In this document: positions 4,619 to 30,900 of the stretch, one piece after another
Layout of the letters: every line of letters starts with the position of its first letter
Numbering within the stretch: the first letter of the stretch is position 1
Origin: Ruminococcus sp.
Lineage (GTDB): Bacteria > Bacillota > Clostridia > Oscillospirales > Ruminococcaceae
Assembly: GCA_017620025.1 (NCBI GenBank)
Contig: JAFZRF010000035.1
Span: 1-32,205 of the forward strand
Length of the DNA stretch: 32,205 nt
Reading direction: 5' to 3'
The notes under the pieces: generated by a model
The model's database searches: none
Told to the model about the DNA's origin: nothing
Seen by the model: only the letters and a program-made list of their open reading frames with translations
Translations under genes and position numbers: made by a program

Positions 4619-6145
4619 TTACTGAGCATTCTTGTCTGTGTTGATATTGTAGTGGAATACAACACGTCTGCTTGCATTGTCATTGACTGAGCCGTCCTCG
4701 TTGTAGATCGGGTTATCATAAGACAAGCCTTCTGAAGTGAGGAGGGGAGTGAGCTTTTCGATTATCTCGGGTGAGAGACCTGACTCAGGGCTTAAGCAGT
4801 AGCTGAGAACGGAAGCTGCACGGTTCTCGGAGAGAGTCTTGTTATAGCCGTAGCTTCCCTTGGTATCGGTATGACCCTGGATCTTGATCTCGGAGATGAA
4901 TCCGTCGTACTTATCGCTGCAGATTACCGAGGTATATGCTGCAAGGAAGCGGTTGACGTATTCACGTCCCTCTGCGGTCAGATCGGAATGAGCAAAGTCG
5001 AAAAGTGATACGGAATTCAGAGTTATCTCGCCCTTTTCATCGTCTATCTGAGCGTTTACACCGGCGTCTGCAAATGCCTGGTTGAGATCTGCAAGAAGCT
5101 GTTCACTGCGTGATACGAGCTCGTTGATCTCCTCCTGAGAGAATCCGCTCAGATCCTCGGGATTTGCAAGGTTGCCGGCTATGGAAGGAGCATAGAGGTC
5201 ATATGAACGTGCGGTATACAGATAATTCTTCTTGCCGTCGCTGAATACAAGGCCGTCAGCGCCGCCGTAGAAGTAGATAAGCTTGCTCTTCTTGTTGTTC
5301 CATTCAAGCTCACAGAAGCCGTCCTCACCGAACTTTACAGTTGCGGGATAAGCTTCCTCGTTTTCAAGGATAGCACCCGAATCGTTCTTGAGGCTGAAGG
5401 AAGTGATGCCCTGTATATCGTTTGAGCCGGGCACAAGGTTGCTGTCGGTAACTGAAATTCCCGTCATGGTGCCTGTAGTGCTGTCCTTCGATACGCCCTC
5501 GGCATGAAGCTCGACCGTTTCGCCGAGACCGTGTGATAACGTAAGGTCTGTACCGTGGAATTTAAAATTTAGTACTATCGGATCCTGAGTTAGTCTATAA
5601 TTGACCTTGCCGGTATCAGGATCTACAGTTTTCTCAGAAATCTGGCGAATCATCAGGTTGTGTCCCTTTATGCTGTAGGAAGCCTCGACCGGACGCTGTT
5701 CACCGTCCTTGGATACAACATACATCGTCATCCAGGCGCTGTCGTTAATATCGATGTCATTGAGCTCGGTCTGATTTGTATGCGGGCCTGCCTCTATACG
5801 GTAAGGAAGTGCTGTTAAATGAGCACCGTCGTTGTTTGGCGACCATAGCGTTGACTTGCCTTTTCTGAATGCATCAGGATCAACGAGTGTTTTAGGATCT
5901 GATTCGTATACGCCGTCAACGACGTAAGTTCCGTAGAACATCTCGGGGGTGTATTCGATCTCCGCGTAGATATCCTCGGCATCGTTGGAAATGATGCTGT
6001 CTACCGGCTCTGTCGGCTCCGGCGGTACGTATTCGTAATTGTATTCCTCGTTCCAGAGCAACCTTTTCAGCGAACAGCCGGAAAGCGGCAGTATAGTAAC
6101 TGCTGCTGCAAGAGAAGCGGCAAGAATTGATTTGTATACTTTCAT
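4619..6145 (-). CDS. Lipoprotein with C-terminal OmpA-like (peptidoglycan-binding) domain
   Basis: The 508-residue product has a lipoprotein signal peptide ending in the lipobox LSGC, so it should be anchored to the outer face of the membrane. A long central region of beta character (about residues 40-330) has no family I recognise. The C-terminal 140 residues are an OmpA-like domain: SLFDFAHSDLTAEG, then GHTDTKGSYGYNKTLSENRA (from about residue 424), and the late NASRRVVF. In this family these residues bind diaminopimelate of peptidoglycan. Such domains are common in Gram-negatives and sparser in Firmicutes. The ATG at 6145 is chosen because the signal peptide begins there and AAAGGA lies 9 nt upstream. 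It is the last gene of a three-gene operon with a sugar-binding-type lipoprotein and a membrane GGDEF-like protein; 54 nt separate it from the latter. Confidence 0.85.
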   Translation of the reverse strand: MKVYKSILAASLAAAVTILPLSGCSLKRLLWNEEYNYEYVPPEPTEPVDSIISNDAEDIYAEIEYTPEMFYGTYVVDGVYESDPKTLVDPDAFRKGKSTLWSPNNDGAHLTALPYRIEAGPHTNQTELNDIDINDSAWMTMYVVSKDGEQRPVEASYSIKGHNLMIRQISEKTVDPDTGKVNYRLTQDPIVLNFKFHGTDLTLSHGLGETVELHAEGVSKDSTTGTMTGISVTDSNLVPGSNDIQGITSFSLKNDSGAILENEEAYPATVKFGEDGFCELEWNNKKSKLIYFYGGADGLVFSDGKKNYLYTARSYDLYAPSIAGNLANPEDLSGFSQEEINELVSRSEQLLADLNQAFADAGVNAQIDDEKGEITLNSVSLFDFAHSDLTAEGREYVNRFLAAYTSVICSDKYDGFISEIKIQGHTDTKGSYGYNKTLSENRAASVLSYCLSPESGLSPEIIEKLTPLLTSEGLSYDNPIYNEDGSVNDNASRRVVFHYNINTDKNAQ

Positions 6146-6199
6146 GGTTCTATTCCTTTCATCCTTTTGGAAGGTGACTTTTCTATCTTCTGTCACTTG

Positions 6200-7411
6200 T
6201 CATGGTTCCGTCACTATGCAGAGACTTCCGCCTCCGTTTTTCTTGATCTGTCTCATCGAAGTATCGAGCTTGATGAGCAGTGCGCTGACATCCGGGCATT
6301 CGTCAGGCCTGTAATGGAGTATGCTGCCTGATGCGTTCATATGGATACTGATGCCGGAGACACTGTAGTTCTCAGACATTGCCGATCTGATCGCTTCTGC
6401 GAGCTCTTCCGCCTGGGGCTCGGGGATGTCCTTGTTGAATATGATGCAGAACTCACTTCCTGTGATGTTGTAGAGAGTGCCGTAATCTCCGAAATCTGAT
6501 ATCAGTCTGTCTGATACGGCTGCAAGGTATTCGTCACCGAAGCTGTAGCCGTATGCGTCGTTGATACGGTGGAATTTATCGGTATCGAATACAGCGATGC
6601 TGAACACGTCTGTCTCGAGGCTGTCAGCAAGGTCGGATTCAAGAGCATAACGGTTCTTCATTCGTGTGAGGATGTTCCTCATTGCGATGTCGTGTACCTT
6701 CTGCTTGGAGTGCTCGAGCTTTCTGTCGGCTGCTGCGAGCTTGTACTTGTTCTGTTTGATCTCCTGTGAGCTGTCCTGAGCCCTTCTGTAGGCGTAGAGG
6801 ATGGCGAGCTCACCGAGTACGAAAAATGCAAGGAGTATCAGCAGTCCGAGACCGTGCGCCACAGCGTTCTGGTGTACGCTCTCTTCCGCATTCCGTGAAC
6901 GTATCTCCATAGCTGCCGTGAGCATCTCGGAGGCGCTGTTCTTGAGCGGTATGATCTCCTGTACATATATCAGCCTTGCCGTTGAGAAATCGCCCTTCTC
7001 AAACAGCGGCACCTGATCCTTAAGTATGCTGTTGTAGGACTGTATTGCCAGCTTTGCCTGGTGGTATCTTCGCTGTTCTGTCTCTGAGCGTCCCTTGATC
7101 TTCTCGTAGGCCTCTTCCTCTTCAGCTATGACATTGAAGGCATTCTTGATCTCGTTGAGGGGATCGGAGCCTGTGTCAAGGAAGAGAGTGGATACTACGC
7201 TCAGTACATTTTCGTTTACTTCAGAGAGCTCATCGTTGATGTTGCTCATGTGCTGGATCGACTCAAGGTCACGGCTGTATATACGCTTGCTGTTTGCGTA
7301 GATGATACTCAGCAGCGCCAGATTCGCAGCACATATCACAAGCAGGAATATTGCGGCGAACTGATATATCCTTCCGGGCTTCTGTTCGTAGCCGTAGCTG
7401 TAGTAGTTCAT
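6200..7411 (-). CDS. Membrane sensor with four-helix-bundle domain and degenerate GGDEF domain
   Basis: A 403-residue protein with two transmembrane helices (about 14-38 and 185-207). They flank an exported helical domain of about 145 residues resembling the 4HB-MCP ligand-sensing bundle. A short coiled coil (about 212-245) leads to a GGDEF-type domain (about 246-400). The substrate-side segment (VFDTDKFHRINDAYGYSFGDEYL) is well kept, but the signature GGDEF reads TGSEF (317-321). That removes the second Gly and the metal-binding Asp, so cyclase activity is doubtful; it may act as a GTP or c-di-GMP-responsive regulator. The start overlaps the upstream gene's stop (ATGA), so the protein is co-translated with the sugar-binding lipoprotein, which is a plausible ligand-loaded partner outside the cell. 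This partnership is inference. Confidence 0.85.
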   Translation of the reverse strand: MNYYSYGYEQKPGRIYQFAAIFLLVICAANLALLSIIYANSKRIYSRDLESIQHMSNINDELSEVNENVLSVVSTLFLDTGSDPLNEIKNAFNVIAEEEEAYEKIKGRSETEQRRYHQAKLAIQSYNSILKDQVPLFEKGDFSTARLIYVQEIIPLKNSASEMLTAAMEIRSRNAEESVHQNAVAHGLGLLILLAFFVLGELAILYAYRRAQDSSQEIKQNKYKLAAADRKLEHSKQKVHDIAMRNILTRMKNRYALESDLADSLETDVFSIAVFDTDKFHRINDAYGYSFGDEYLAAVSDRLISDFGDYGTLYNITGSEFCIIFNKDIPEPQAEELAEAIRSAMSENYSVSGISIHMNASGSILHYRPDECPDVSALLIKLDTSMRQIKKNGGGSLCIVTEP

Positions 7412-8400
7412 TTCTCCGCACCTCCCTGACCTGCAGGATCGAGCAGGAGCTGAATGTAGTCCTCGCCGATATTGTCCTTATCGACATAGTTGAAACCTGT
7501 ATCTATGAACTGCGGCACTGCCTGTCCGCTGAGGAGCTTCATGCAGTTCCTTACGCCGAGATAACCGATGTTGTAGGGGCTCTGCACCATGACTCCGGCG
7601 AGGATCCCGTCCTTGACGAAGCCTATCTCCTCATCCGATATGCCGAAGCCTATGACGCTTATCTTGCTGGTAAGTCCCTTCTCCTTGACTGCACGGCATA
7701 TACCGCCCGCAGCACCCTCGCTTGCGCCGAGAATCAGCGTAAGGTCGGGCTCCTGATCTATCAGCTCAAGAGCGAGCTCCTTTGCCTTGTCAGCATCGCC
7801 CTCGCAGTATTTTGACGCCGAGAATTTGAACGAAGCCTTCGTTGAGGATTCAAGATATCTTATGAATCCGGCAGCTCTCTCCTGGCATTCGGTGTCAGAT
7901 TCGGTGCTGCCTATAACAGCGAACCTTCCGCCCTCCGGAACGACCTCCTCAGCCCTTCTTCCGGCAATAGCGCCTGCCGAGCCGTTCTGCGGCCCCACGA
8001 CCGTACTAATTCCGCCGTAGGATACTTCAGAGCCGACAGCCACGACCGGTATCCCGGCATCCTCTGCGGCCTTCAGCTCATCATTGAGCTGATCCCTGTC
8101 GGAGGGGGCAATGATTATGGCACCGGTCTTCTTCTCAACGGCTTCCTTTATCAGAGCAGCCTGAGCCTCAGGTGAGGGATCATCAGGGACTGCAAATGTT
8201 ATATTACAGAGCATCTCCTCGCCGCCGTCAGCAGCGCCCTTCTTCAGGTCCTCCGAGTATTCGGAGCTGTCAGACAGGCATATCACGGTAATGTTCCTTG
8301 CCGAGCCGCTGCTGTTCTTTCCGCAGCCGGCAGTGCCGAGCATCAGAGCGGCAGAAGCAGACACAGCAATCATCCTGCTGAGTGTTTTCCCGAGATTCAT
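7408..8400 (-). CDS. Sugar-binding-type (RbsB-like) lipoprotein
   Basis: A 330-residue lipoprotein: signal peptide with a cysteine after TAG, then a two-lobed periplasmic-binding-protein domain of the Peripla_BP_4/RbsB kind. Visible family landmarks are the first strand NITVICLSDSSEYSEDLKKG, GAIIIAPSDRDQL, the hinge region GIPVVAVGSEV, the late GFGISDEEIGFVKDGILAGVMVQ and YLGVRNCMKLL. These proteins bind sugars or autoinducer-2. No permease or ATPase gene is nearby; instead the gene overlaps by 4 nt a membrane signalling protein, so a sensory rather than a transport role is likely. The ATG at 8400 has a strong AAGGAGGT 6 nt away, and the longer ORF upstream lacks this and would bury the signal peptide. 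The promoter is at 8460-8488. Confidence 0.88.
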   Translation of the reverse strand: MNLGKTLSRMIAVSASAALMLGTAGCGKNSSGSARNITVICLSDSSEYSEDLKKGAADGGEEMLCNITFAVPDDPSPEAQAALIKEAVEKKTGAIIIAPSDRDQLNDELKAAEDAGIPVVAVGSEVSYGGISTVVGPQNGSAGAIAGRRAEEVVPEGGRFAVIGSTESDTECQERAAGFIRYLESSTKASFKFSASKYCEGDADKAKELALELIDQEPDLTLILGASEGAAGGICRAVKEKGLTSKISVIGFGISDEEIGFVKDGILAGVMVQSPYNIGYLGVRNCMKLLSGQAVPQFIDTGFNYVDKDNIGEDYIQLLLDPAGQGGAEK

Positions 8401-8459
8401 TTTCAGACCTCCTTCGTACCGTCGGAGACGGTCTGTATACGATCTTTCCATACAGTTAT

Positions 8460-8488
8460 ATTTTAGCACAAACAGATATAAATTTCAA
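8460..8488 (-). promoter_or_regulatory. Sigma-A promoter of the sensory lipoprotein operon
   Basis: Minus strand: TTGAAA (8488-8483), 17-nt spacer, TAAAAT (8465-8460). It drives the three minus-strand genes 8400 to 4619. Confidence 0.8.
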
Positions 8489-8647: not shown

Positions 8648-8676
8648 TTGACTTTTATTGATATTGGTGTTATACT
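8648..8676 (+). promoter_or_regulatory. Sigma-A promoter of the kinase/vWA/PP2C operon
   Basis: TTGACT (8648-8653), 17-nt spacer, TATACT (8671-8676). The following leader is about 200 nt long, carries a second TATAAT-like box near 8735, and shows no c-di-GMP riboswitch signature. I see no other promoter of this quality before any later gene of the run. Confidence 0.75.
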
Positions 8677-8876
8677 ATATGTAAGTGAGTTTCCGTTTTT
8701 TCTGTAATTTCCTCCCGGAGTTATACTATTATTAATATAATACGACACAGTGATCCGGGATGCAAGGGAATGCAGACAGTGACATTTCGGAAACAGCAGC
8801 GGCATCAAGACAAAACTTTATTGCACATATTCCGGATGCCGGCTTGTTATTTCTTTTACGACAGGAGAGGTGATTT

Positions 8877-9920
8877 ATGCGTTGTGAGAATTGTAACGCA
8901 GAACTTGCGGATACTAATGTAGTATGTCCGGAATGCGGGACGCCTGTTTCACGTAACGTAGAGGGATTTGAGAATACCGTCATCATCAAGAAAGAACTGA
9001 AGAATATCCTTGAGCAGCACGGTCAGGATATCATTACCCAGACGGACAGATTCGTCGGCCTTCTGAATGACTATATACCTGAGTACGACAAGGAGCGCAG
9101 GCTCCTCCGCAATATGCTGGAAGCCGGAGTGCTCAAGAGAATGATAAAGGACGGCAATGACAAGACAGCTATCATGTCAGCAAAGAGCTACATGATCGGT
9201 GAGCTTTTCATTTCCGAGAATGCAGCTGAGTTTGTAATAGTGTGCTTTGCGCATATTCTCGGCTGGAAGTATGAGACACAGATCGTAAAGAAGGAACCTG
9301 TTGAAGATCCCGATGAGGAGAAGAAGGAAGAGAAGCAGAAGGGCCCGATCAATATCAACGCAAAGATATTCCGGCCCATCGATGCGGCAAAATCCCGCTT
9401 CAAGGCAAATATCGTTATTCCCGAGGGTATAACACGTATCGACAGCTTCTGCTTTGACGGCTTCGGTTTCCTCCGCACGATAGAGCTTCCCTCTACCCTT
9501 GCGGCGATCAGTGAATACGCTTTCTCAGAGTGCAAGAGACTCAGAGGCGTAGAGCTTCCCGAATCACTGAAGATCATAAGACAGGGCGCATTCAGCCAGT
9601 GTGCAAAGCTGGCAATAGTAAAGCTCCCCAAGGGTATTCTTGAGATAGAGGACAATACCTTCCAGTTCTGCCGCAGTCTTGAGGTCGTAGATGTACCTCC
9701 GACTGTCAGCAGCATCGGCAGCCTCGCATTCAGCGGCTGTGACAGCCTGAGAAAGCTGTTCCTTCCCGACAGTATCAAGTTCATCGACGAGAACGCATTT
9801 GCGTACTGCCCGGCGCTGACGATACGCTGCTATGAGAATTCATATGTACACAAGTACTGCCTTACCAACGGCATAAAGACAGAGCTTGTGGTAAAGGGCG
9901 CAGCATTCAGCAAGAGATAA
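8877..9920 (+). CDS. Zinc-ribbon protein with BspA-type leucine-rich repeats
   Basis: The 347-residue product starts with a zinc ribbon (C3-x2-C6 and C17-x2-C20). A helical domain (about 30-135) and a Lys/Glu-rich linker (about 140-160) follow. About six leucine-rich repeats of the LRR_5/BspA type (about 175-320) carry the pattern IELPSTLAAISEYAFSECKRL repeated with variation. There is no signal peptide, so it is cytoplasmic, unlike most BspA-type LRR proteins, which are surface proteins. LRR domains bind proteins, and the zinc ribbon may dock on the partner zinc ribbon of the next gene's kinase (inference). It is the first gene of a six-gene run; AGGAGAGGTG precedes the ATG. It could be a scaffold or substrate of the kinase/phosphatase pair. 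Confidence 0.85.
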   Translation: MRCENCNAELADTNVVCPECGTPVSRNVEGFENTVIIKKELKNILEQHGQDIITQTDRFVGLLNDYIPEYDKERRLLRNMLEAGVLKRMIKDGNDKTAIMSAKSYMIGELFISENAAEFVIVCFAHILGWKYETQIVKKEPVEDPDEEKKEEKQKGPININAKIFRPIDAAKSRFKANIVIPEGITRIDSFCFDGFGFLRTIELPSTLAAISEYAFSECKRLRGVELPESLKIIRQGAFSQCAKLAIVKLPKGILEIEDNTFQFCRSLEVVDVPPTVSSIGSLAFSGCDSLRKLFLPDSIKFIDENAFAYCPALTIRCYENSYVHKYCLTNGIKTELVVKGAAFSKR

Positions 9921-9976
9921 CACCGCTGCCGCACGGCGGGATTCATACTAAAGCTACTGTGAAAGGATGAAAGACA

Positions 9977-11326
9977 ATGATAGAGCTGAAGATCGGCCAG
10001 GAGGTCGAAATGGAATTCGGCGGAAATGCCAAGGTTCTCAGTATCATAGGAAGCGGCGGACAGGGTATCGTATACCTTGTGGAATTCAACGGCATCAAAT
10101 GGGCGCTCAAGTGGTACGACATTGACAAGATCCGCAATCCACAGGCGTTCAGAAAGAATATACAGCAGAACATCAACGACGGCCCGCCGAGCGAGAAGTT
10201 CCTCTGGCCAAAGTACCTCACCAAGGAGAAATCCGACGGTACCTTCGGATATGTCATGGATCTCCGTCCCGAGGGCTTTGATTCCTTCGTTGATATCCTC
10301 AATACATACAGGCTCGAGATAGACGACCTCACAGGCCATGCAGTAAAGAAGCCCGTAAGGTTCACAAGCCTCTTTGCAATGGTGACAGCAGTCATCAATA
10401 TAGTAAATGCCTTCAGACAGCTCCACCGTGCAGGTAAGAGCTATCAGGACCTTAACGACGGAGGCTTCTTCATCAACGTAAATACCGGTGATATCCTCGT
10501 CTGCGACTGTGACAACATCGCACCTGACGGAAGCAACTTCGGTATCGGCGGTAAGCCTGGATATATGGCTCCCGAGGTCGTAAGAGGCATAGCAAAGCCT
10601 AATGTTCAGACTGATAAGTATTCACTTGCAGTCGTTCTCTTCAAGCTCCTTTTCCGCGGAGACCCCATGGAGGGCGAGAAGGTGGTAAAGGATATCTGTC
10701 TTACAGAATCCTCAGAGCTCAGACATTACGGCCAGAACGCTGTGTTCGTATACGATCCCGATGACAAGTCCAACCGCCCTGTAAGAGGCATCCACGACAA
10801 CGTCATCAAGTTCTGGAGCATCTATCCTGATTACATAAGAGACGCTTTCATTACCTCCTTTACGGTAGGTATAAGAGAGCCTAACAAGCGTATGATCGAG
10901 AACGAGTGGCAGAAGCTGTTCATAAGACTCCGTACAGAGATCATCATGTGCGGAAGCTGCGGAAGAACAAACTTCACCTCGATGTTCGAGAAAGTGGATG
11001 ACAGGACATACAAATGTCCCAAGTGCGGAAGCGAGTTCGCAACGCTCGGATTCAGCAACCGTGATTACCGTATGCCGCTGTACCTGGGATGCAGATTCTT
11101 CGAGTGCGAGATAAGCCCCGAATCTGACGATTTCCAGACAGTTGCCGGACAGCTTGTTGAAAACAAGCTCAAGCCCGGAGTACTCGGCATTAAGAACACC
11201 TCCAACAAGACCTGGAAGACCAAGATGCCGGACGGCCAGTTCTATGATATCGCTCCCGGAAAGGGATTCCCGATATGGAACGGTCTCGAGATCGATTTCG
11301 GAGAAATCAAGGCATTCATTAAATGA
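9977..11326 (+). CDS. Protein kinase-like protein with C-terminal zinc ribbon (TerY-P-type kinase)
   Basis: A 449-residue cytoplasmic protein. The kinase domain (about 15-310) has the glycine loop GSGGQGIVY (25-33), the ATP lysine K45 in ALKWY, the catalytic-loop aspartate D158 in YQDLNDGGFF, a metal-loop segment CDCDN (176-180) in place of DFG, and MAPE (197-200). The usual catalytic-loop Asn (five residues after the Asp) is Gly163 here, so activity may be altered. A zinc ribbon follows (C325-x2-C328, C347-x2-C350), then a beta-rich C-terminal domain of about 85 residues, vaguely FHA-like. The next two genes encode a TerY-like vWA protein and a PP2C phosphatase, the combination known as the TerY-P triad. 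It probably phosphorylates Ser/Thr on a partner that PP2C resets. AAAGGA lies about 10 nt before the ATG. Confidence 0.88.
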   Translation: MIELKIGQEVEMEFGGNAKVLSIIGSGGQGIVYLVEFNGIKWALKWYDIDKIRNPQAFRKNIQQNINDGPPSEKFLWPKYLTKEKSDGTFGYVMDLRPEGFDSFVDILNTYRLEIDDLTGHAVKKPVRFTSLFAMVTAVINIVNAFRQLHRAGKSYQDLNDGGFFINVNTGDILVCDCDNIAPDGSNFGIGGKPGYMAPEVVRGIAKPNVQTDKYSLAVVLFKLLFRGDPMEGEKVVKDICLTESSELRHYGQNAVFVYDPDDKSNRPVRGIHDNVIKFWSIYPDYIRDAFITSFTVGIREPNKRMIENEWQKLFIRLRTEIIMCGSCGRTNFTSMFEKVDDRTYKCPKCGSEFATLGFSNRDYRMPLYLGCRFFECEISPESDDFQTVAGQLVENKLKPGVLGIKNTSNKTWKTKMPDGQFYDIAPGKGFPIWNGLEIDFGEIKAFIK

Positions 11327-11368
11327 TTACAATATATCTTCAAATAAAAAAAGAAACAGAAAGGGCGT

Positions 11369-12289
11369 ATGCAGCTTATGAGTACAGAAAGCACTGAAAA
11401 GAAGCAGGAGCAGATGACCCCCGGCACAGAATCGCTTTTAGCAGCAGCCGAGGCAGCAACAGAAGCTCTCGCTCCTCAGCAGGGAAATGAGCCGGCTGCG
11501 GAAATACCCAAGGCCAAAAAACCCGTTCTGGACTTCGATGACGATGATCCCCTCAGCGCTACCGGAGTATCCAGAAAAAGTCTTGTTATATTCTTCCTGA
11601 TCGACACATCCGGAAGTATGAAGGGCAAGAAGATGGGAGAGCTCAATACAGTCATGGAAGAGCTTATCCCTGAGATCAGACGTGTCGGCGAGGCTGATAC
11701 CGATGTCAAGGTAGCGGTTCTCACCTTCTCAACAAGTGTTAGATGGATGTATTCAACACCTATTTCCATTGAGGAGTTCGAGTGGGCAAGACTGCGTGCA
11801 GACGGTGTTACCAGCATGGGTGAGGCTTTCAGAGAGCTCTCCGTGAGAATGTCACGCAACAGCTTCCTCAATTCTCCTTCACTTTCATTCGCACCTGTTA
11901 TATTCCTTATGACAGACGGATATCCTTCGGATGATTATAAGAGCGGACTGAAGGCGCTGCAGAGCAACAGCTGGTACAAGTTCGGCCTGAAGGCTGCACT
12001 CGGTATCGGAAGCGAAGCAAACGATGATATGCTTGCTGAATTCACAGGAAGCAAGGATACCGTTGTACACGCTTACTCCGGAAGCCAGCTCGCACAGATG
12101 ATCAAGATCATCGCCGTAACATCATCTCAGATCGGAAGCAAGAGTATGACACTCTCCGACGAGACCAACCACGAGCTCAGTGAGACAGATGTTTATGCAG
12201 CAAAGCAGAAGCTTCTCGGACAGCAGATCCAGGAGCTCATCAAGGAGCAGGATGAATCAGACCCGGTTCCCTTCGACACCGGCTGGTAA
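11369..12289 (+). CDS. TerY-like von Willebrand factor A (vWA) domain protein
   Basis: A 306-residue cytoplasmic protein. A disordered Ala/Glu/Pro-rich N-terminus ends in an acidic DFDDDD patch (55-60). The vWA domain (about 70-265) has a full metal-ion-dependent adhesion site: DTSGS (79-83), T148 in DGVTSMGEAF and D183 in MTDGYPSDD, so it should bind a divalent metal and a partner's acidic side chain. A helical tail ends in an aromatic motif. TerY-type proteins belong to tellurite/stress-response systems and occur with kinase and PP2C genes exactly as here. It probably brings the kinase and phosphatase to a common target. Start choice: the ATG at 11369 has AAAGGG only 3 nt away; the ATG at 11378 is a fair alternative. 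It lies 42 nt after the kinase gene. Confidence 0.9.
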   Translation: MQLMSTESTEKKQEQMTPGTESLLAAAEAATEALAPQQGNEPAAEIPKAKKPVLDFDDDDPLSATGVSRKSLVIFFLIDTSGSMKGKKMGELNTVMEELIPEIRRVGEADTDVKVAVLTFSTSVRWMYSTPISIEEFEWARLRADGVTSMGEAFRELSVRMSRNSFLNSPSLSFAPVIFLMTDGYPSDDYKSGLKALQSNSWYKFGLKAALGIGSEANDDMLAEFTGSKDTVVHAYSGSQLAQMIKIIAVTSSQIGSKSMTLSDETNHELSETDVYAAKQKLLGQQIQELIKEQDESDPVPFDTGW

Positions 12290-12334
12290 TAACCGGACGG
12301 CAAGAGACATACCGATCGAAAGGAGTTCACATCT

Positions 12335-13288
12335 ATGTACAGGGGCTTTTCCTACTCTGTAATGGGCGCAAGTCATGAGAAGCGCGGTATCGTATGCCAG
12401 GACAGCTCGGCTTTCCGTGTGTATGACAGCTGGTGTATTGCAGTAGCTGCCGACGGACACGGAAGCAAGAAGCATTTCCGCAGCGATCTCGGTTCAAAGT
12501 TTGCGGTCAAGGCGGTCCTTGAGACAGTCGAGGACTTCTTCGGGGCATCGGAAGATTTTGAAAAACTGTTCATGGAACGTCATGACAGTATAATAAAGCG
12601 TATCGAGAAACAGATAATAGCACGTTGGGACGGGGCAGTAAACAGACATATAAGCGAGAACCCCGTAACAGACAAGGAACGTGAACCGTTCACAGAAGAG
12701 GAATTCGAGAAAATAGCTATCGAGTCGTATTACGGCACTACACTTATGGCAGCAGTGACCTGCGACAGCTTTACATTCGGTCTCCAGATCGGTGACGGTA
12801 CCCTTGTAGCGGTATACAATGACGGAAGCACGGTCACCCCTATGGAATATGAGGAATCCGCACCTGCTAATATCACGGCCTCGATGTGCAACACGAATGC
12901 CTATGATATGTTCAATAGCTTCTATACAGAGGAAAAGCCGATCGCGCTATTCGCTTCGACAGACGGGCTCTATACCTCCTTCGGAAGCGAATACGATTTC
13001 CTCGACTATCATACGATCATTTCAAGCCAGCTGCCCGAATTCAGCGAGCTTGAGGACAATATCCTGAAGAATCTGACTAAGCGTTCCCATTTCGGAACAG
13101 AAGACGACATTACCCTCTCCTGCGTTTATGACAGTGAGCTTGCCTCACAGAAGCAGGGGCTTTTGACAGAAAAGGTTGACGAAAATAAGGTAAAAGCTGC
13201 ATCTCGCAAAGCAGAGCAGATCGCAACCCTTGAAAAGCAGCGTCTCAAGAATCAGATCAAACGCCGCAGCGAAAGCGGTAAAAAATGA
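12335..13288 (+). CDS. PP2C-family protein phosphatase
   Basis: A metal-dependent Ser/Thr phosphatase of 317 residues, cytoplasmic. Landmarks: GIVCQDSSAF with D23, AADGHGSKKH with D40 (metal ligands), YYGTTLMAAV (132-141), IGDGTLVAVY (152-161), ASTDGLYTSF with D210, and EDDITLSCVY with D257/D258 for the second metal. The catalytic set appears complete. The last 45 residues are a Lys/Arg-rich helix that may bind nucleic acid or an acidic partner. It forms the phosphatase arm of the triad with the kinase and vWA genes, with intergenic gaps of only 30-56 nt through the run, which supports one transcript. AAAGGAG lies 9 nt before the ATG. Confidence 0.92.
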   Translation: MYRGFSYSVMGASHEKRGIVCQDSSAFRVYDSWCIAVAADGHGSKKHFRSDLGSKFAVKAVLETVEDFFGASEDFEKLFMERHDSIIKRIEKQIIARWDGAVNRHISENPVTDKEREPFTEEEFEKIAIESYYGTTLMAAVTCDSFTFGLQIGDGTLVAVYNDGSTVTPMEYEESAPANITASMCNTNAYDMFNSFYTEEKPIALFASTDGLYTSFGSEYDFLDYHTIISSQLPEFSELEDNILKNLTKRSHFGTEDDITLSCVYDSELASQKQGLLTEKVDENKVKAASRKAEQIATLEKQRLKNQIKRRSESGKK

Positions 13289-13318
13289 TCGCACTAATTT
13301 ATTAAGGAGTTAATTGAT

Positions 13319-14362
13319 ATGGAAAACAAAACCAAATTCAAAAATAATAATACGAACATACCGGTGCTGCTGGTGTGCATTGTATTGTTCATTTTATTAT
13401 GGGTCATACAGGGAAGGCTGACGACCAAGGATAATCCCGCCGTATTGCAGATCATCAACACACTGGTTGATCTTTGTGACCGCAATAATATCGGCGAAGA
13501 AAGAATGTCCGTAATCGGACCGCTCAACGGCCTTCTCCATCAGGGCAATTCTTCCGTACAGGGCATCATTGCACAGGTACAGGTTCTTCTGTCCGTGATC
13601 ATGGTGCTTACAAACCGTAAGAAGGGTCTCATCGCAGCAGCTGCACTCAATCTCGCAAACACAGTTTACCTTATAATATTCGTAACACTCTTCAGAAAGG
13701 GCACACTGCCTCCGGGTGCTATCGTTTCTCTTGTTACAGTAGCCATTGCAGCTATCCTCTACGCCTTCCTTGCGAAGAACGAGAAGATGCATGAAGATCT
13801 TGCAAAGAGCTACCAGGAGGCTATCGAAACAAACCGTATCATCCAGGAAAAGGATGAGGTTCTCCAGTACCTTGCATATTATGACCGTCTTACACAGATG
13901 CCTAACAGACAGCTCTTCATGGAGACACTCGAAGAGCATATCGCGTCAGGCGACGAGTGCAGCGTAATCTACGTTGACCTCGATGACTTCAGAAGAATCA
14001 ACGATAACTACGGCCACAGCACCGGTGATGAGCTGCTTGTATCTTATGCAAAGAAGATCGAGTCACTCTGCGGCGAGGATGCTTTCGCAGCAAGAATCGG
14101 CGGAGACGAGTATGGCATCATCCTCGGCTCAGGTCTTACAGCTGATGACGTATATGTATTCGTTACAAGAATGAGCGAGATATTTGATACTCCTCTTGAT
14201 ATAAGAGGCGAAGTATTCACAACTACAGCGAGCTTCGGTGCTTCAACATTCCCCCAGGATGCAAGAAGCGCAGAGGATCTCTTCAGATGCGCAGAGACTG
14301 CTATGTTCACAGCTAAAACAGGCGGCAAGAACCAGCTCTGCTTCTTCAGAAGAGCACGCTAA
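13319..14362 (+). CDS. Membrane diguanylate cyclase (GGDEF)
   Basis: Makes cyclic di-GMP from two GTP. The 347-residue protein has about four hydrophobic helices (about 14-32, 84-98, 103-124, 133-152) with no large exported domain, then a short helical linker (to about 185) and a GGDEF domain (about 186-345). The domain is intact: YYDRLTQMPNRQLF, VDLDDFRRINDNYGHSTGDELL and the signature GGDEY (261-265). No RxxD inhibitory site precedes the signature, so product inhibition at that site is not expected. AAGGAG lies 9 nt upstream of the ATG. It lies 30 nt after the PP2C gene and 35 nt before the deaminase-like gene, which places c-di-GMP synthesis in the same transcript as the kinase/phosphatase triad. 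Confidence 0.92.
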   Translation: MENKTKFKNNNTNIPVLLVCIVLFILLWVIQGRLTTKDNPAVLQIINTLVDLCDRNNIGEERMSVIGPLNGLLHQGNSSVQGIIAQVQVLLSVIMVLTNRKKGLIAAAALNLANTVYLIIFVTLFRKGTLPPGAIVSLVTVAIAAILYAFLAKNEKMHEDLAKSYQEAIETNRIIQEKDEVLQYLAYYDRLTQMPNRQLFMETLEEHIASGDECSVIYVDLDDFRRINDNYGHSTGDELLVSYAKKIESLCGEDAFAARIGGDEYGIILGSGLTADDVYVFVTRMSEIFDTPLDIRGEVFTTTASFGASTFPQDARSAEDLFRCAETAMFTAKTGGKNQLCFFRRAR

Positions 14363-14397
14363 ACTGCTTACAGCATGAAAGGAAAGCGTGAGATCAA

Positions 14398-15735
14398 ATG
14401 GAGATAAACGTATTATATAACGCTTCGAAAATGCTTGCAGACAAGGTGAAAAAGGAAAGACCGAATTATGTGGTCGATCCCGCATCTTCACTCTGTCTGA
14501 TCATTACAGATAAGGATGAAATCTTTTCAGGTGTTACAGGCGTAAGAGTAAACGGAGAATCAGTAGTGACTGTATGCTCCGAGACAAATGCTATCATGTC
14601 GATGATAGTAGCCAACCAGGTAAACGCCAAGCAGATGATCACTATCTCTTTCACCGATTATCAGGTATTAGAGCCCTGTGACAGCTGCATAAGCCTGCTC
14701 TACAGAGCAAGCGCAACAAATAACGAATGTGAGATCATCACATCACCCACGACTTCTGTAAAGGCAGAAGAGCTGAAGGCAGGCAGACGCACAGAGGCTC
14801 CGGCAGCAGAACCCGCACCGGCAGCTGCTCCTGTACCGCCTCCGGATGTACCTGATTTCCTTGCAGATTTCGATGATTCATACAGTGAGCTCAGCACAAC
14901 ACCGACATTTGAAGCAACAGCCGAATTTGCCGCAAGTGCCGAACCTGACGAATCAAATCCCTTCTATGCACCTCCCGCCGACAGCAAGCCCAATGATTTC
15001 CAGGCATACAGCGGCGCTCCCGAGCCTCCCAAGGCTCTCTACGATCAGCCTATCGATGCACAGATGCAGGGTATGAGCGGATTTGTAAATCCCTTTGAAG
15101 CTCCCCAGCAGCAGCCTGTTCAGAGCGGCTACCCGCAGCAGGGTTATCCTCAGCAGGGCTATCCTCAGCAGGGTTACCCGCAGCAGGGCTATCCTCAGCA
15201 GGGTTACCCGCAGCAGGGCTATCCTCAGCAGGGTTACCCGCAGCAGGGCTATCCTCAGCAGGGTTACCCGCAGCAGGGCTATCCTCAGCAGGGCTACCCG
15301 CAGCAGGGTTATCCCCAGCAGGGCTATCCGCAGCAGGGTTATCCCCAGCAGGGCGGTTATCCTCAGCAGGGCGGTTATCCGCAGCAGGGCGGCTACTTCG
15401 ATGCAGCTCCCTATCAGCAGGCAGGCGGCCGCAGCATCCACGTAACGGAGGGTGCAACACCTATTCCGCCTCCGAAGAGAAGCATGAGCCAGTACACACA
15501 GAGCAGACAGCTTTCAAGCCAGTTTACTCAGAATGTACCTACAGGCGGGGATTCAGCCTTCAAGAAGCGTCTTAACAGCTTCATGGCTGACAGCACAGTT
15601 TCTACTCCGGCACCCGTTAACGACACTCCCGATCCGCCGTCCATGAATGAACTCATGAAGCAGGCAAAGGATAAGAAGAAGGTCGCAAAGGTTAATTCGG
15701 ATTTCAAGAAGCGCATGAAGGATATGGGTTATTGA
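14398..15735 (+). CDS. Cytidine-deaminase-like domain fused to GYPQQ-repeat low-complexity tail
   Basis: A 445-residue protein in three parts. Residues 1-110 have the cytidine-deaminase fold pattern: [16 protein letters not shown], then C60-S-E62 (matching the family C-A-E, with the proton-shuttle Glu kept) and P93-C94-x2-C97, giving three Cys zinc ligands. The Arg that usually follows CAE is Thr, so the substrate may differ or the domain may only bind. Residues 120-240 are Ala/Pro/Asp-rich and disordered. Residues 244-330 are 17 units of (G)GYPQQ, a Tyr/Gln-rich prion-like tract. The C-terminus holds two related basic motifs, FKKRLNSFM and [10 protein letters not shown] (the very end). No signal peptide or membrane helix is visible. 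It is the last gene of the kinase/vWA/PP2C run, before a strong terminator. The function is unknown; a stress-condensing sensor or effector is one possibility. Confidence 0.82.
15127..15387 (+). repeat. In-frame tandem repeat encoding 17 (G)GYPQQ units, with a 30-bp higher-order period
   Basis: Fifteen 15-bp units (GGY TAY CCN CAG CAG) and two 18-bp units with an extra Gly codon. In the middle the codons alternate strictly (GGC-TAT-CCT, then GGT-TAC-CCG), so the true duplicated unit is 30 bp and is perfectly repeated about four times (from 15157 on). This points to recent expansion and likely length variation between strains. Confidence 0.95.
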
Positions 15736-15746
15736 TATCATAAAAC

Positions 15747-15773
15747 AAGGGACTGCTCCGGCAGTCCCTTTTT
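15747..15773 (+). terminator. Terminator of the kinase/vWA/PP2C operon
   Basis: Perfect 10-bp stem AAGGGACTGC (15747-15756) and GCAGTCCCTT (15761-15770), TCCG loop, T-run after it. It lies 12 nt past the stop codon at 15735. Confidence 0.9.
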
Positions 15774-15883: not shown

Positions 15884-16408
15884 TCAGTTAATGGAGATTC
15901 CTCCGCCGGCCCATCCGGATCCGATCTTGCTGTATAGCTTCGTAAGCATTTTCATCCTTCTGTTGTGGACGAATCTGAATATAGCAAAGCTGACGAGTAT
16001 CGACATACAAATCGCGATGATCACACCAACGACCTTGCTGGGGATCAGTACGAGGCAGATGATCCAGAGTATGAGCAGTGCAACTCCGAGAAAAGGCAGC
16101 ATTGTTGTGATAGAAGCATTGCTGACCTTGATATACTGCTGGATATCGAATTTGTCGAGCTTGTCGTAGTGACGGGCGATAAAGTTATCAGGTCTCGCCC
16201 ACTTGGAGAAATCCTTGAGTGTAGCGAATTTTATAGTATAGTCCTGATAAGTACTGGCGACACGGTAATCAACAGATACTCCGCTGCCGTCCTGAGAGCC
16301 ACCCATGATGTGTACAAGGGTACCGGCCTCCACCTGTCCGGCAACGCTCTTAGTGACGAGGAATTTTCTGTCGATAGCGTCATCAATACTGCTGAGCAAA
16401 TACGTCAT
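15884..16408 (-). CDS. Small membrane protein of unknown function (two C-terminal TM helices)
   Basis: I do not recognise this 174-residue protein. The first 100 residues are soluble, with a small beta-rich part (FLVTKSVAGQVEAGTLVHIMGG looks like an SH3- or KOW-like barrel start; weak inference) and a segment rich in Lys/Asp/Phe. Two transmembrane helices follow (about 102-122 and 126-146), and the C-terminus is basic then Gly-rich. A strong AAGGAG site lies 6 nt before the ATG, with its own consensus promoter and two terminators, so it is a single-gene unit. It faces the kinase/vWA/PP2C operon convergently, and nothing shows it belongs to that system. Confidence 0.8.
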   Translation of the reverse strand: MTYLLSSIDDAIDRKFLVTKSVAGQVEAGTLVHIMGGSQDGSGVSVDYRVASTYQDYTIKFATLKDFSKWARPDNFIARHYDKLDKFDIQQYIKVSNASITTMLPFLGVALLILWIICLVLIPSKVVGVIIAICMSILVSFAIFRFVHNRRMKMLTKLYSKIGSGWAGGGISIN

Positions 16409-20836: not shown

Positions 20837-21331
20837 ATGGTCATATCAAAGGGAAAAGACAGAGTAACCAAGGCGGATACCTACCTCAACTGTGCGGAGG
20901 TCTTCGCCTACAGGAGTACCTGTCTCAAAAGGAAATACGGCGCAGTCATCGTGAAGAACGATGTGGTTATCTCGACCGGCTACAACGGCTCGCCGAGAGG
21001 TACTGAGAACTGCTGCGACAGGGGAGAATGCCCGAGGATCGCACTTGGTATGCATCAGGGAGACGGCTACGGAATGTGCAGAGCAGTACACGCCGAGGCC
21101 AACGCTCTTCTGAACTGTTCAAGAGATCAGACAGTCGGCGCAGATCTCTATCTTGCGGGAGTAAATCCTGCGGACGGCTCTGTCCATAAAGCAAAGCCCT
21201 GTCCGCTGTGTGCAAGGCATATCATACAGGCAGGCATCAGGAACGTCTACCTTCGTCAGAGCGACAAGGCGGACGATTATACGGTGATCCCAGCAGAAGA
21301 ACTGGAATGGTTCAAGGAGAGCGGCGTATAA
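20837..21331 (+). CDS. dCMP deaminase (ComEB-like)
   Basis: Deaminates dCMP to dUMP, feeding thymidylate synthesis. The 164-residue zinc enzyme has the motif VHAEANALLNCSRD (His ligand and catalytic Glu) and KPCPLCARHIIQAGI (two Cys ligands), plus the GYNGSPRGTENC segment typical of dCMP deaminases/ComEB. The ATG lies 2 nt after the proB stop, with AGGG about 11 nt upstream, so it is coupled to proB. Its placement in the middle of the proline genes has no metabolic explanation that I can see. Confidence 0.92.
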   Translation: MVISKGKDRVTKADTYLNCAEVFAYRSTCLKRKYGAVIVKNDVVISTGYNGSPRGTENCCDRGECPRIALGMHQGDGYGMCRAVHAEANALLNCSRDQTVGADLYLAGVNPADGSVHKAKPCPLCARHIIQAGIRNVYLRQSDKADDYTVIPAEELEWFKESGV

Positions 21332-27961: not shown

Positions 27962-30900
27962 ATGAGTGATAAGACAATGAAGAAGCGTATCGCAGCAGCA
28001 GTGTTTGCGGCAGTTATGTCCGCCTCCTGTGCTGCCGGTACCTTCGCAGGAACAGCGCCCGTATATCAGGGCAGCATTTTAAGCGCACAGGCAGCTGCGG
28101 CAAGCGTATCTGTAGCCGCAACAGCAGGCTACGGCGAGGGTATGTATGCCACATGGTCGCCGGTAACAGGCGCTTCCGGCTACAACGTGTATGTTGACGG
28201 CGTGCAGCTTGACTCCATGCTGATAAGACAGTATCCCGGATACTTCAGAGCCGACGCAGTAGGCCTCAAAGCCGGCAGCCATACCATGAAGATAGTCCCC
28301 GTCATCAGCGGCAGGGAGGACACCTCCAAGGCAGCCGAGACAAAAGCCACAGCCTACGCCCACGACAGAAGCGGCTACGGCTTTATAGGCGGTTCTTCAT
28401 CAGGCGCCTACAACGACGACGGCACCCTTAAATCCGGCGCAGCTGTAATATATGTAACCAACGCCACCAAGGACAGCGTGACGGTAACTCTCCCCGACAA
28501 GAAGGGCACGGCCACCTCGCTCACAGGCATACAGAACATTATCACCAACCTCAAGAGCAATACAAAGGTGCAGGCAGTATGTATCAGAGTCATCGGCAAC
28601 ATCACCGATCCTTCTGTTCTTAACAAGGGCGACCTCTACATAGATACAGCAACCTGCGGCCTTACCATAGAGGGTATTGGCAATGACGCCACCTTCAACG
28701 GCTTCGGTCTCGTCATGAAGAACAGCTCCAATGTAGAGGTAAGGAATATCGGCTTCATGAACTGCAACAGCTCCGAGGGCGACGACTGCGGCCTCCAGCA
28801 GGGCAACGACCATATCTGGGTGCATAACTGCGATTTCTTCTACGGCGATGCCGGAAGCGACGCTGACCAGGCAAAGGGCGACGGCGCGCTTGATACCAAG
28901 ACCTCGACCTATGTTACTCACTCCTACAACCACTTCTGGGACAACGGCAAGTGCAACCTCCAGGGCATGAAGTCCGAGACAGCGGAGAATTATATCACCT
29001 ACCACCACAACTGGTACGACCACTCCGATTCCCGTCACCCGAGAATACGCACCTGCACAGTACATATCTACAACAACTACTACGACGGCAACGCCAAGTA
29101 CGGCGTAGGCGTGACTATGGGCGCCTCTGCCTTCGTCGAGAATAACTATTTCCGCAACTGCAAGTACCCCATGCTCATATCCGGTCAGGGCAGCGATGTA
29201 GCTACAGGCGGCACCTTTTCCGGCGAGCCTGGCGGAGTGATAAAGTCCTTCGGCAACTACATCGAAGGCGCCAAGGCCTATATCACACAGAAGGACAGCT
29301 CCTCCGACTTCGATGCCTACGAGGCCTCCTCACGCACCGAGCAGGTACCAGGCAGCGTAAAGGCTAAGGACGGCGGCACCTCATACAGCAACTTCGACAC
29401 ATCCTCTGGCTTCTATAAGTACACCCCCGATGCAGCTTCAGACGTACCTGCCATAGTTAAGGCAAAGGCAGGCCGTGTTGACGGCGGCGACTTCAAGTGG
29501 CAGTTTGACAATGCAGCTGACGATGAGAGCTATGCAGTCAATGCGGCTCTCAAATCAGCTCTGACTTCATACAAGGACTCCATAACCGCGATCGGAAGCG
29601 GCTTCAAGGAGGATAATACGCCCTCTCCCGTTGTGACCACAACTACACCCGTGGCCGTAACTACTGTACCCGTAACAGCTGCGCCTGTGACAACGCAGGC
29701 GCCCGTTACGGAAGCTGCTCCCGTAACCGGCTCGGATGTTATCTACGCATCACCGGACGGCGGCGGCGACGGCAGAACTATGCAGTCCCCGACAGATGTG
29801 GTATCAGCTATAAAGGCAGTCCCCGCAGGCGGTACGGTATACCTCCTCGACGGCACCTACAGGCTCAGCCAGACCATACTCATCGAGCAGAGCAACTCCG
29901 GCACAGACGGCAGATACAAGACACTCTCCGCATATCCCGGCGCAAAGCCCGTGCTTGACTTCTCCGCAATGGAGTTCGGCGCCTCCAACAGAGGCTTCGT
30001 CCTTGACGGTTCATACTGGCATTTCTACAACTTCGCCGTAACAGGCGCAGGTGACAACGGCATCCTTCTCTCCGGCAATCACAACAAGATAGAGCTGATG
30101 AAGCTCTACGGCAACAGGGATACCGGCTTGCAGATATCACGCTACAGGACTGACGCCGGAAGTATTTCCGACTGGCCTTCATACAACCTTGTACTCAACT
30201 GCACCTCCTTCAACAACCTTGATACCGACAACGAGGAGGACGCCGACGGTTTCGCAGCCAAGCTGACCTGCGGCGAGGGCAACGTATTCGACGGCTGTAT
30301 GGCCTACAACAACAGCGACGACGGCTGGGACCTCTTCGCTAAAACCGAGACAGGCCCCATCGGCACAGTCACCATAAAGAACTGCATCGCCTTCCGCAAC
30401 GGCAGAACGGAGACCTCACAGCTCCACCCCCAGAATGACGGAAACGGCTTCAAGCTGGGCGGTTCCGGCGTAGGCTCACCTCATCAGGTGATAAACTGTC
30501 TCGCCTTCGAGAACCTGCACTGCGGCTTCACCGACAACAATAACCCCAAGCTTGCAAAGCTGATAAACTGTACCGCAGTAAACAACGGCGAGGACTCCAA
30601 GCCCAACTTCTCAGCCTACCGCTGCTCAAGTCCCGGAGCGACCTTCCAGAACCTTATATCCGCATACGTAGGCGGCAGGTCACTGGGCGAGAGCGATAAG
30701 TTCTACGGCACTATCTCCGACAGCGTAGTAATAGACAGCGGCAAGACCTATCAGATAGGCTCAGCCTACACCACAGCCAACAACGGCGTAAAGGGCGGCG
30801 GCACGGTGATTAACAACCTCTCCGCCTCCGATTTCACAAGCATCACCGTACCGAAGGTCGGCACAGACTTCCATACCGCATGGAGAGATGCGAACGGCAA

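Follow-up and report, generated by a model that had tools for sequence, protein, structure and literature searches.

Whether the six genes at 8877–15735 of a 32 205 nt stretch of Ruminococcus sp. DNA (GenBank assembly GCA_017620025.1, contig JAFZRF010000035.1; the whole stretch is referred to here as the window) belong to one system and, if so, what that system acts on, is the question addressed here. In its assembly, which totals 2.7 Mb and is 76 % complete, the window constitutes contig 41. All six open reading frames face the same way (+ strand), with intergenic gaps of 56, 42, 45, 30 and 35 nt, as was described in an earlier note made from the sequence alone, and they encode, in order, a leucine-rich repeat (LRR) protein (347 aa; 8877–9920), a protein kinase (449 aa; 9977–11326), a vWA protein (306 aa; 11369–12289), a PP2C phosphatase (317 aa; 12335–13288), a GGDEF protein (13319–14362) and a protein of cytidine deaminase-like (CDA) fold with a low-complexity tail (445 aa; 14398–15735). 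The earlier note took them to be an extended TerY-P operon in which reversible phosphorylation controls synthesis of cyclic di-GMP (c-di-GMP) and a deaminase-like effector. What is known of TerY-P triads, reportedly first described by Anantharaman et al. in 2012, comes to our knowledge mostly from comparing genomes. On the reading that we favour, to which we give a probability of roughly 0.42, the locus would encode a TerY-P phospho-switch conserved in the lineage, to which the LRR protein belongs as dedicated client and the CDA-fold protein as pseudoenzyme scaffold, the links between the proteins being ones that we infer from their sequences.

The kinase, vWA and PP2C genes almost certainly constitute a TerY-P triad, as had been recognised before. 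As defined in sections of PMC11090510, such triads comprise adjacent genes for a vWA protein, a PP2C phosphatase and a kinase with a C-terminal zinc ribbon, and the window has, in three adjacent genes, a Ser/Thr kinase with a C-terminal zinc ribbon (C325, C328, C347 and C350; 10949–11026), a TerY-like vWA protein with a complete MIDAS, and a PP2C-like phosphatase (Pfam matches Pkinase 6.3e-10, VWA 6.8e-10 and PP2C_2 1.2e-34; the LRR and GGDEF proteins match LRR_5 at 2.8e-34 and GGDEF at 2.3e-35). Kinase residues K45, D158, D177 and D179 and the four zinc cysteines are invariant in 15/15 aligned rows, and the cysteines are at least 90 % kept in 27 more varied rows. Likewise invariant are the vWA MIDAS residues D79, S81, S83, T148 and D183 (16/16 rows) and the PP2C metal-site residues D40-G41-H42-G43, D154, D210, D257 and D258 (14/14 rows). 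The C-terminal beta-rich part of the kinase, which the solved-structure searches barely tested, gave nothing convincing, and its fold is not called new. The absence of TerC and TerD noted earlier was also found here, in that models for both had no match in the 76 % complete assembly, while TerD matched two and TerC nine of 14 control genomes. No AAA domain was found among the six operon proteins or the four nearest neighbours scanned, and the ternary MoxR–vWA pairing is thus not seen there.

Conservation of the cluster in relatives was assessed by scanning named genomes with the kinase alignment, which confirmed 260 stretches, and the best 80 were kept. Gene order was counted in the 59 of these with at least 5.5 kb to the right and at least 1.3 kb to the left of the kinase. 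The order LRR–kinase–vWA, followed by the CDA-fold gene, is present in 59/59 of these loci from Ruminococcus and relatives. Writing L, K, V, P, G and C for the LRR, kinase, vWA, PP2C, GGDEF and CDA genes, m for a 174-aa neighbour, B for a sugar-binding protein and M for a receptor, the layouts are LKVPCm (31), LKVPC (12), LKVPGC (11), LKVGC (3), LKVPGCm (1) and BMLKVPC (1), and median gaps between cluster genes across loci are 18–69 nt. The PP2C gene is found in 56/59 and the GGDEF gene in 15/59, so that of the parts which the earlier note saw as added to the triad, the LRR and CDA genes are constant and the GGDEF gene is facultative. Because the loci were picked by kinase similarity, the constancy of LRR and CDA holds for this kinase clade and not for all TerY-P loci, and they do not show what proportion of strains is without the locus. 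The neighbourhood comparison that the earlier note had proposed, a search for triads without the flanking genes, gave a divided answer: LRR and CDA are present in every close relative with sufficient flank, whereas among 19 more distant loci with parts of the triad (17 of them with a kinase) CDA is found in none and GGDEF in one. The kinase of a relative from the same genus (G019) is 89 % identical to that in the window, and among the strains with the locus are cultured ones of R. flavefaciens, 007c and ATCC 19208 for example. When the vWA protein was searched in a sample of the family, 27/148 genomes matched, and in 12 of these the identity reached at least 70 %.

Judged from its sequence and context, the cluster is chromosomal and lineage-conserved and is no chance neighbourhood, because the same order recurs in every relative with enough flank, and it is very probably one conserved genetic system. 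It could be argued instead that the LRR, GGDEF and CDA genes are unrelated to the TerY-P triad and have stayed next to it because rearrangement is slow. The GGDEF and downstream genes do vary, and in one relative (L065) the CDA gene is on the other strand, but LRR and CDA accompany the triad at short spacing in 59/59 loci despite a median CDA identity of 0.43, and this explanation is very improbable. In the 67 loci where all five proteins are present, pairwise identity has a median of 0.82 for the kinase, 0.81 for vWA, 0.62 for PP2C, 0.54 for LRR and 0.43 for CDA; slow evolution of kinase and vWA against fast evolution of LRR and CDA is the pattern that a core would be expected to show when its partners adapt.

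The LRR protein includes a zinc ribbon, for which the Pfam score is slightly under the cut-off, and BspA-type LRRs. Between these, residues 28–128 (approximately 100 residues; 8958–9260, + strand) are predicted to be helical and have no Pfam match, and an adaptor-like domain of this kind, overlooked in the earlier note, is shared with partner proteins of other TerY-P loci, where the corresponding region of the proteins scanned likewise has no Pfam match. A profile built from the LRR proteins alone finds proteins in 8/17 kinase-bearing other loci, and a wider profile (A9) does so in 13/17, though eight of these 13 supplied rows to it. Two of the loci, L103 and L104, have the kinase only within the stretch examined, without vWA or PP2C there. 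The proteins carrying the helical domain are otherwise of very different kinds, with Sel1 repeats (L098 and L103–L106), LRR_5 (L100) or a UvrD helicase (L107); those in L101 and L102 are hydrophobic proteins that have no Pfam match or were outside the Pfam scan, and in L071 they are DUF6273 proteins, next to which a reverse transcriptase and a bAvd-like protein are encoded, and also a vWA protein. When 394 genomes of the order were searched, the domain was found in 13 (E 0.001). A TerY-P kinase (E 1e-30) is present in 15 of the 394, and these account for 11 of the 13, the remaining 379 genomes for two. From this distribution, it is fairly likely that the domain serves as an adaptor. No convincing match emerged when its profile was compared with solved structures (best E 0.076), and in structure searches with the whole LRR protein the results were taken up by the LRR part, so that the domain was barely tested and its fold is not called new.

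One of these loci deserves separate description. In L071 (3345–16677; genome G136, of the same family), a TerY-P triad lies beside genes for a reverse transcriptase and for a bAvd-like protein (37.8 bits, cut-off 40). Several further proteins there have the helical domain at their N-terminus, and DUF6273 is present in at least two of these. Judged by its genes, the layout resembles that of a diversity-generating retroelement, which would then feed a TerY-P system (compare parts of PMC10907252).

This layout, with the helical domain on DUF6273 proteins, would suit a further explanation, namely that the window, as other TerY-P loci do, encodes a system for conflict or for defence against phage, with the LRR protein as sensor of the invader and the CDA-tail protein as effector. 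Passages of PMC11090510 report that TerY-P triads accompany CoCoNuT and that TerY-P-like modules with an OB-fold are stand-alone defence systems. PADLOC models match the kinase domain (PD-T4-6, mad6 and C3a189) and three of ten other proteins of the window, with ZorB on an OmpA-family protein (8.1e-41), E1-E2 on a ThiF protein (9.9e-19) and SspA/DndA on a PLP enzyme (6.3e-6). However, the kinase matches are partial, the other five operon proteins have none and the set has no full-length model matches, while the three matches to neighbours seem to reflect domains that ordinary enzymes share and, in one case, an OmpA domain; for the OmpA-family protein (4619–6196) only the C-terminal part matches the ZorB models, and an OmpA-like domain is probably all that is shared. 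Most of the ten neighbouring genes scanned with Pfam are metabolic or carbohydrate genes, and gene order in this kinase clade is constant rather than that of patchy islands, though no flank-by-flank island test was made. Hence, a role in defence appears unlikely.

The CDA-fold protein is the second constant partner. Its match to dCMP_cyt_deam_1 (24.9 bits) falls just under the Pfam cut-off of 25, and the profile of its N-terminal domain finds only cytidine or blasticidin-S deaminases among its PDB matches (10/10, E 0.011–0.26). The zinc ligands and catalytic Glu (C/H-x-E and PCxxC) are intact in the window, but of 82 CDA rows only 22 have the full set, while six have part of it and 54 have lost every zinc ligand, and the state of the site changes at least eight times on the tree. 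A constant part, by contrast, is the tail behind the N-terminal domain, in which Q, N, G, Y, P and M are abundant and account for at least half of the residues in 67/72 rows. The tail of the window copy includes an in-frame 15 nt repeat, present in approximately 16.7 copies (15127–15392) and encoding PQQGY; we describe such tails as low-complexity and do not assign prion-like behaviour to them. A short C-terminal motif, also missed earlier, follows the pattern hydrophobic-[KR]-x-[KR]-[LVIF]-x-x-hydrophobic-hydrophobic and is predicted to be helical (FKKRLNSFM in the window, residues 388–396; 15559–15585). It is found in 66/72 full-length rows and in no more than two of 72 in each of 300 shuffles, a comparison that indicates non-randomness and not independent discovery, because the pattern was written after the sequences had been viewed.

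That the CDA-fold protein is a working deaminase, which makes or removes a nucleotide signal and of which the zinc-less copies are decayed versions, would accord with the intact site in the window and in 22 of the rows, with the exclusively deaminase matches of the profile and with stand-alone copies described below, of which 11/11 read have the zinc set. Yet gene order, tail and motif endure although every zinc ligand is gone from 54 rows, and one neighbour of a receptor (L200, below) has no CDA domain at all. In raw counts, the intact site does go with a GGDEF gene (16 intact and 10 not where GGDEF is present; 6 and 50, respectively, where it is absent). However, a tree of kinase plus vWA (80 rows) offers only three (starred branches) to six independent pairs, over which the sign test was not significant, so this tie was rejected in favour of shared ancestry. 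A deaminase is therefore improbable as the general function. Loss of the site in most relatives suggests a scaffold rather than an enzyme, and we consider that the CDA protein probably is one. An order-wide search with the CDA profile matched 49/394 genomes, mostly in short frames of approximately 125–190 aa like those of true cytidine deaminases, and these were not counted as members. Another locus, L204 (2128–3486), encodes a CDA-like protein of 452 aa, in the tail of which Q, G, M and N are abundant and from which the zinc residues appear by eye to be gone, and no GGDEF gene was recognised in that stretch. A separate protein encoded outside the cluster in the window (20837–21331) matches PF00383 at 61.4 bits, above the deaminase cut-off.

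The GGDEF protein of the operon has four transmembrane (TM) segments by hydropathy and the motif RIGGDEY, which conforms to GG[DE]E[FY] and which the earlier note had correctly called intact; it has no RxxD I-site and is a predicted cyclase by its motif only. Elsewhere the gene is present in zero, one or seven copies. The GGDEF alignment has 35 rows, 33 of them operon copies (two loci counted twice) and two of them stand-alone GSDEF proteins, and just 15 of the 33 operon copies read GGDEF (12) or GGDEY (3), the others being altered to SGDEF, TGDEF, SGDDF, GGDQY and similar forms. In L062 (7978–14736), seven membrane GGDEF genes lie in tandem between PP2C and CDA, none with a complete motif.

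Two further genes lie upstream on the opposite strand and had been overlooked. One encodes a sugar-binding-type lipoprotein (7408–8469; Peripla_BP_4, lipobox by eye), and the other a membrane protein (6200–7411) with a four-helix domain (4HB_MCP by Pfam) and a degenerate GGDEF domain, the motif of which reads TGSEF in the window. Of the 61 loci that extend 5 kb or more to the left, 48 have such a pair within 6 kb, and the receptor motif is lost in 59/59 rows, with TGNEF in 47.

These data bear on the possibility that the triad controls c-di-GMP synthesis through the operon GGDEF protein, much as SiaA/SiaB act through SiaC on SiaD in Pseudomonas. The SiaABCD precedent (parts of PMC7647112), the intact motif in the window and the GGDEF fold of the divergent receptor speak for it. 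On the other side, the gene is present in only 15/59 loci, its copy number varies and its motif is often altered, and since the motif of the divergent receptor is lost as well, c-di-GMP synthesis cannot be the common output; control of this kind is decidedly unlikely. Hence, the interpretation put forward in the earlier note is partly supported, in that it holds for the core and fails for both of the outputs proposed, c-di-GMP synthesis and a deaminase effector.

Additional information on the C-terminal motif comes from a second module in the same genome (contig 54; L075, 4367–6655), where a 235-aa CDA protein with the motif adjoins a dCache_1-GGDEF protein reading GSDEF. When that receptor was searched in the 148 family genomes, 14 places in ten genomes were found, six of them (five genomes) at 80 % coverage or more, and all six are beside a motif protein. 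The 12/12 stand-alone receptors read carry RTGSDEF, and eight stand-alone CDA proteins of the GSDEF-receptor type all have HAE, PCxxC and the motif. One receptor neighbour (L200, 2998–3189) is a 63-aa protein consisting of the motif region only, the CDA domain being gone (profile E 8.2e-8; the strict pattern is not matched). The five genomes with a receptor–motif pair all have an LRR-type triad locus as well. As motif proteins are constant beside GSDEF receptors and the motif stands alone in L200, we think that the motif, and not the deaminase fold, is the working part. That it docks on degenerate GGDEF domains is a tentative and rather doubtful proposal.

The favoured reading, a phospho-switch with an LRR client and a pseudoenzyme scaffold, would operate as follows. 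Input would pass from the sugar-binding lipoprotein to the membrane receptor encoded beside it. The helical domain would dock the LRR protein onto a complex of kinase and vWA, the LRRs offering a recognition surface for the target, and the kinase and PP2C would set the phosphorylation state of the LRR protein, the CDA protein or both. The CDA-tail protein would be the output scaffold, its tail driving assembly and its C-terminal motif docking onto the degenerate GGDEF domain of a membrane receptor, in the window presumably the divergent 6200–7411 protein, and the operon GGDEF protein would be an optional additional output. A bolder version, more doubtful than the docking step itself, would make the helical domain a general client tag of TerY-P switches, the core reading any attached recognition module (LRR, Sel1, hypervariable DUF6273 or helicase). 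In Ruminococcus the tagged LRR would then work with a pseudo-deaminase condensate scaffold, the C-terminal helix of which plugs into degenerate GGDEF receptors, so that ex-enzyme and ex-cyclase folds would signal by protein contact and not by c-di-GMP.

Several observations weigh against the favoured reading. The PP2C gene is absent from 3/59 loci (L123, L125 and L128), where tblastn finds none in the stretches examined, and relative L065 has its CDA-like gene, together with two GGDEF genes, on the opposite strand. The kinase clade has Gly (DLNDGGFF, 12/12 rows) where three other triads (L070–L072) have Asn. In most kinases, Asn at this position binds metal, and if that is its role here, full kinase activity is an assumption. 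The concentration of the helical domain in genomes with a TerY-P kinase (11/15) is partly circular, as seven of the 13 genomes gave rows to the profile; four of the six held out have the kinase, and at least one of these four (G019) is closely related to a training row. The strict C-terminal motif is missing from 6/72 CDA rows, the divergent receptor pair is not near in 13/61 loci, and 7/12 family genomes with an LRR-type locus have no receptor–motif pair at the 80 % level. Finally, the window CDA protein could still be a deaminase, its zinc set being intact, and the stand-alone CDA proteins beside GSDEF receptors keep theirs in 11/11 cases read with the domain, which would fit an enzyme or a metal sensor there. 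As a separate observation, the vWA proteins of L123, L125 and L128 have diverged to approximately 65 % identity with that of the window.

Compared to classical TerY-P loci, the window differs in the constant LRR and CDA-tail partners and in the divergent sugar-binding and degenerate-GGDEF receptor genes, as well as in that no TerC or TerD was found in the 76 % complete assembly. Modules of a kinase with zinc ribbon/beta-domain, PP2C and vWA, which sections of PMC7159879 describe as restricted to actinobacteria, are also found in GAP1-N2 GTPase conflict systems. The triad is the same, and the logic of the effector-associated domains described there, a common core joined to varied partners by an adaptor, is comparable to that suggested for the helical domain, with no sequence evidence of kinship; unlike those systems, there is no GTPase among the six operon proteins and the helical domain has no Pfam match. 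In SiaABCD of Pseudomonas aeruginosa, a PP2C phosphatase and a kinase set the phosphorylation of a partner in a pathway that includes a cyclase (parts of PMC7647112). The resemblance to the PP2C, kinase and cyclase here would be one of principle, and whereas the cyclase is optional here, vWA, LRR and CDA partners are not named for SiaABCD in those parts. The CDA protein resembles tetrameric cytidine deaminases in its fold, as predicted by profile, and in the zinc and catalytic residues of the window copy, but differs in scoring under the Pfam cut-off, in the loss of zinc ligands from most relatives, in the long low-complexity tail and in the C-terminal motif. Literature searches on TerY-P, Ruminococcus and deaminase-like, GGDEF or disordered proteins yielded no description of this gene set in the portions of text retrieved; the 2012 paper of Anantharaman et al., which was outside that search, may mention parts of it.

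The operon is bounded by the signals that the earlier note had pointed out, though these are consensus matches only: a promoter-like site with an extended -10 (TTGACT-17-TATACT; 8648–8676, + strand) and a terminator-like hairpin of ten pairs with a T-run (15747–15770, + strand). The segment 7500–17000 contains 18 promoter-like sites where shuffles give 10.6, some weak ones lying inside the operon, and 18 terminator-like sites where shuffles give 8.9. No Rfam family reaches its gathering score anywhere in the window, and control by a riboswitch is thus not indicated. The 174-aa protein (15884–16408, - strand), which has two predicted TM segments in relatives, is a common downstream neighbour in either orientation. 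Farther away (27962–31672) is a pectate lyase with CBM77 and a dockerin match under the cut-off, which fits a degrader of plant fibre.

The presence of a shared helical domain on otherwise unrelated partners makes target choice by TerY-P systems directly testable. In the CDA-tail family, enzyme-like copies and copies without zinc form a natural series, throughout which gene order, tail and helix are kept, and the family would be a good model for pseudoenzyme scaffolds. As the locus is present in several cultured strains of R. flavefaciens, these possibilities could be studied at the bench.

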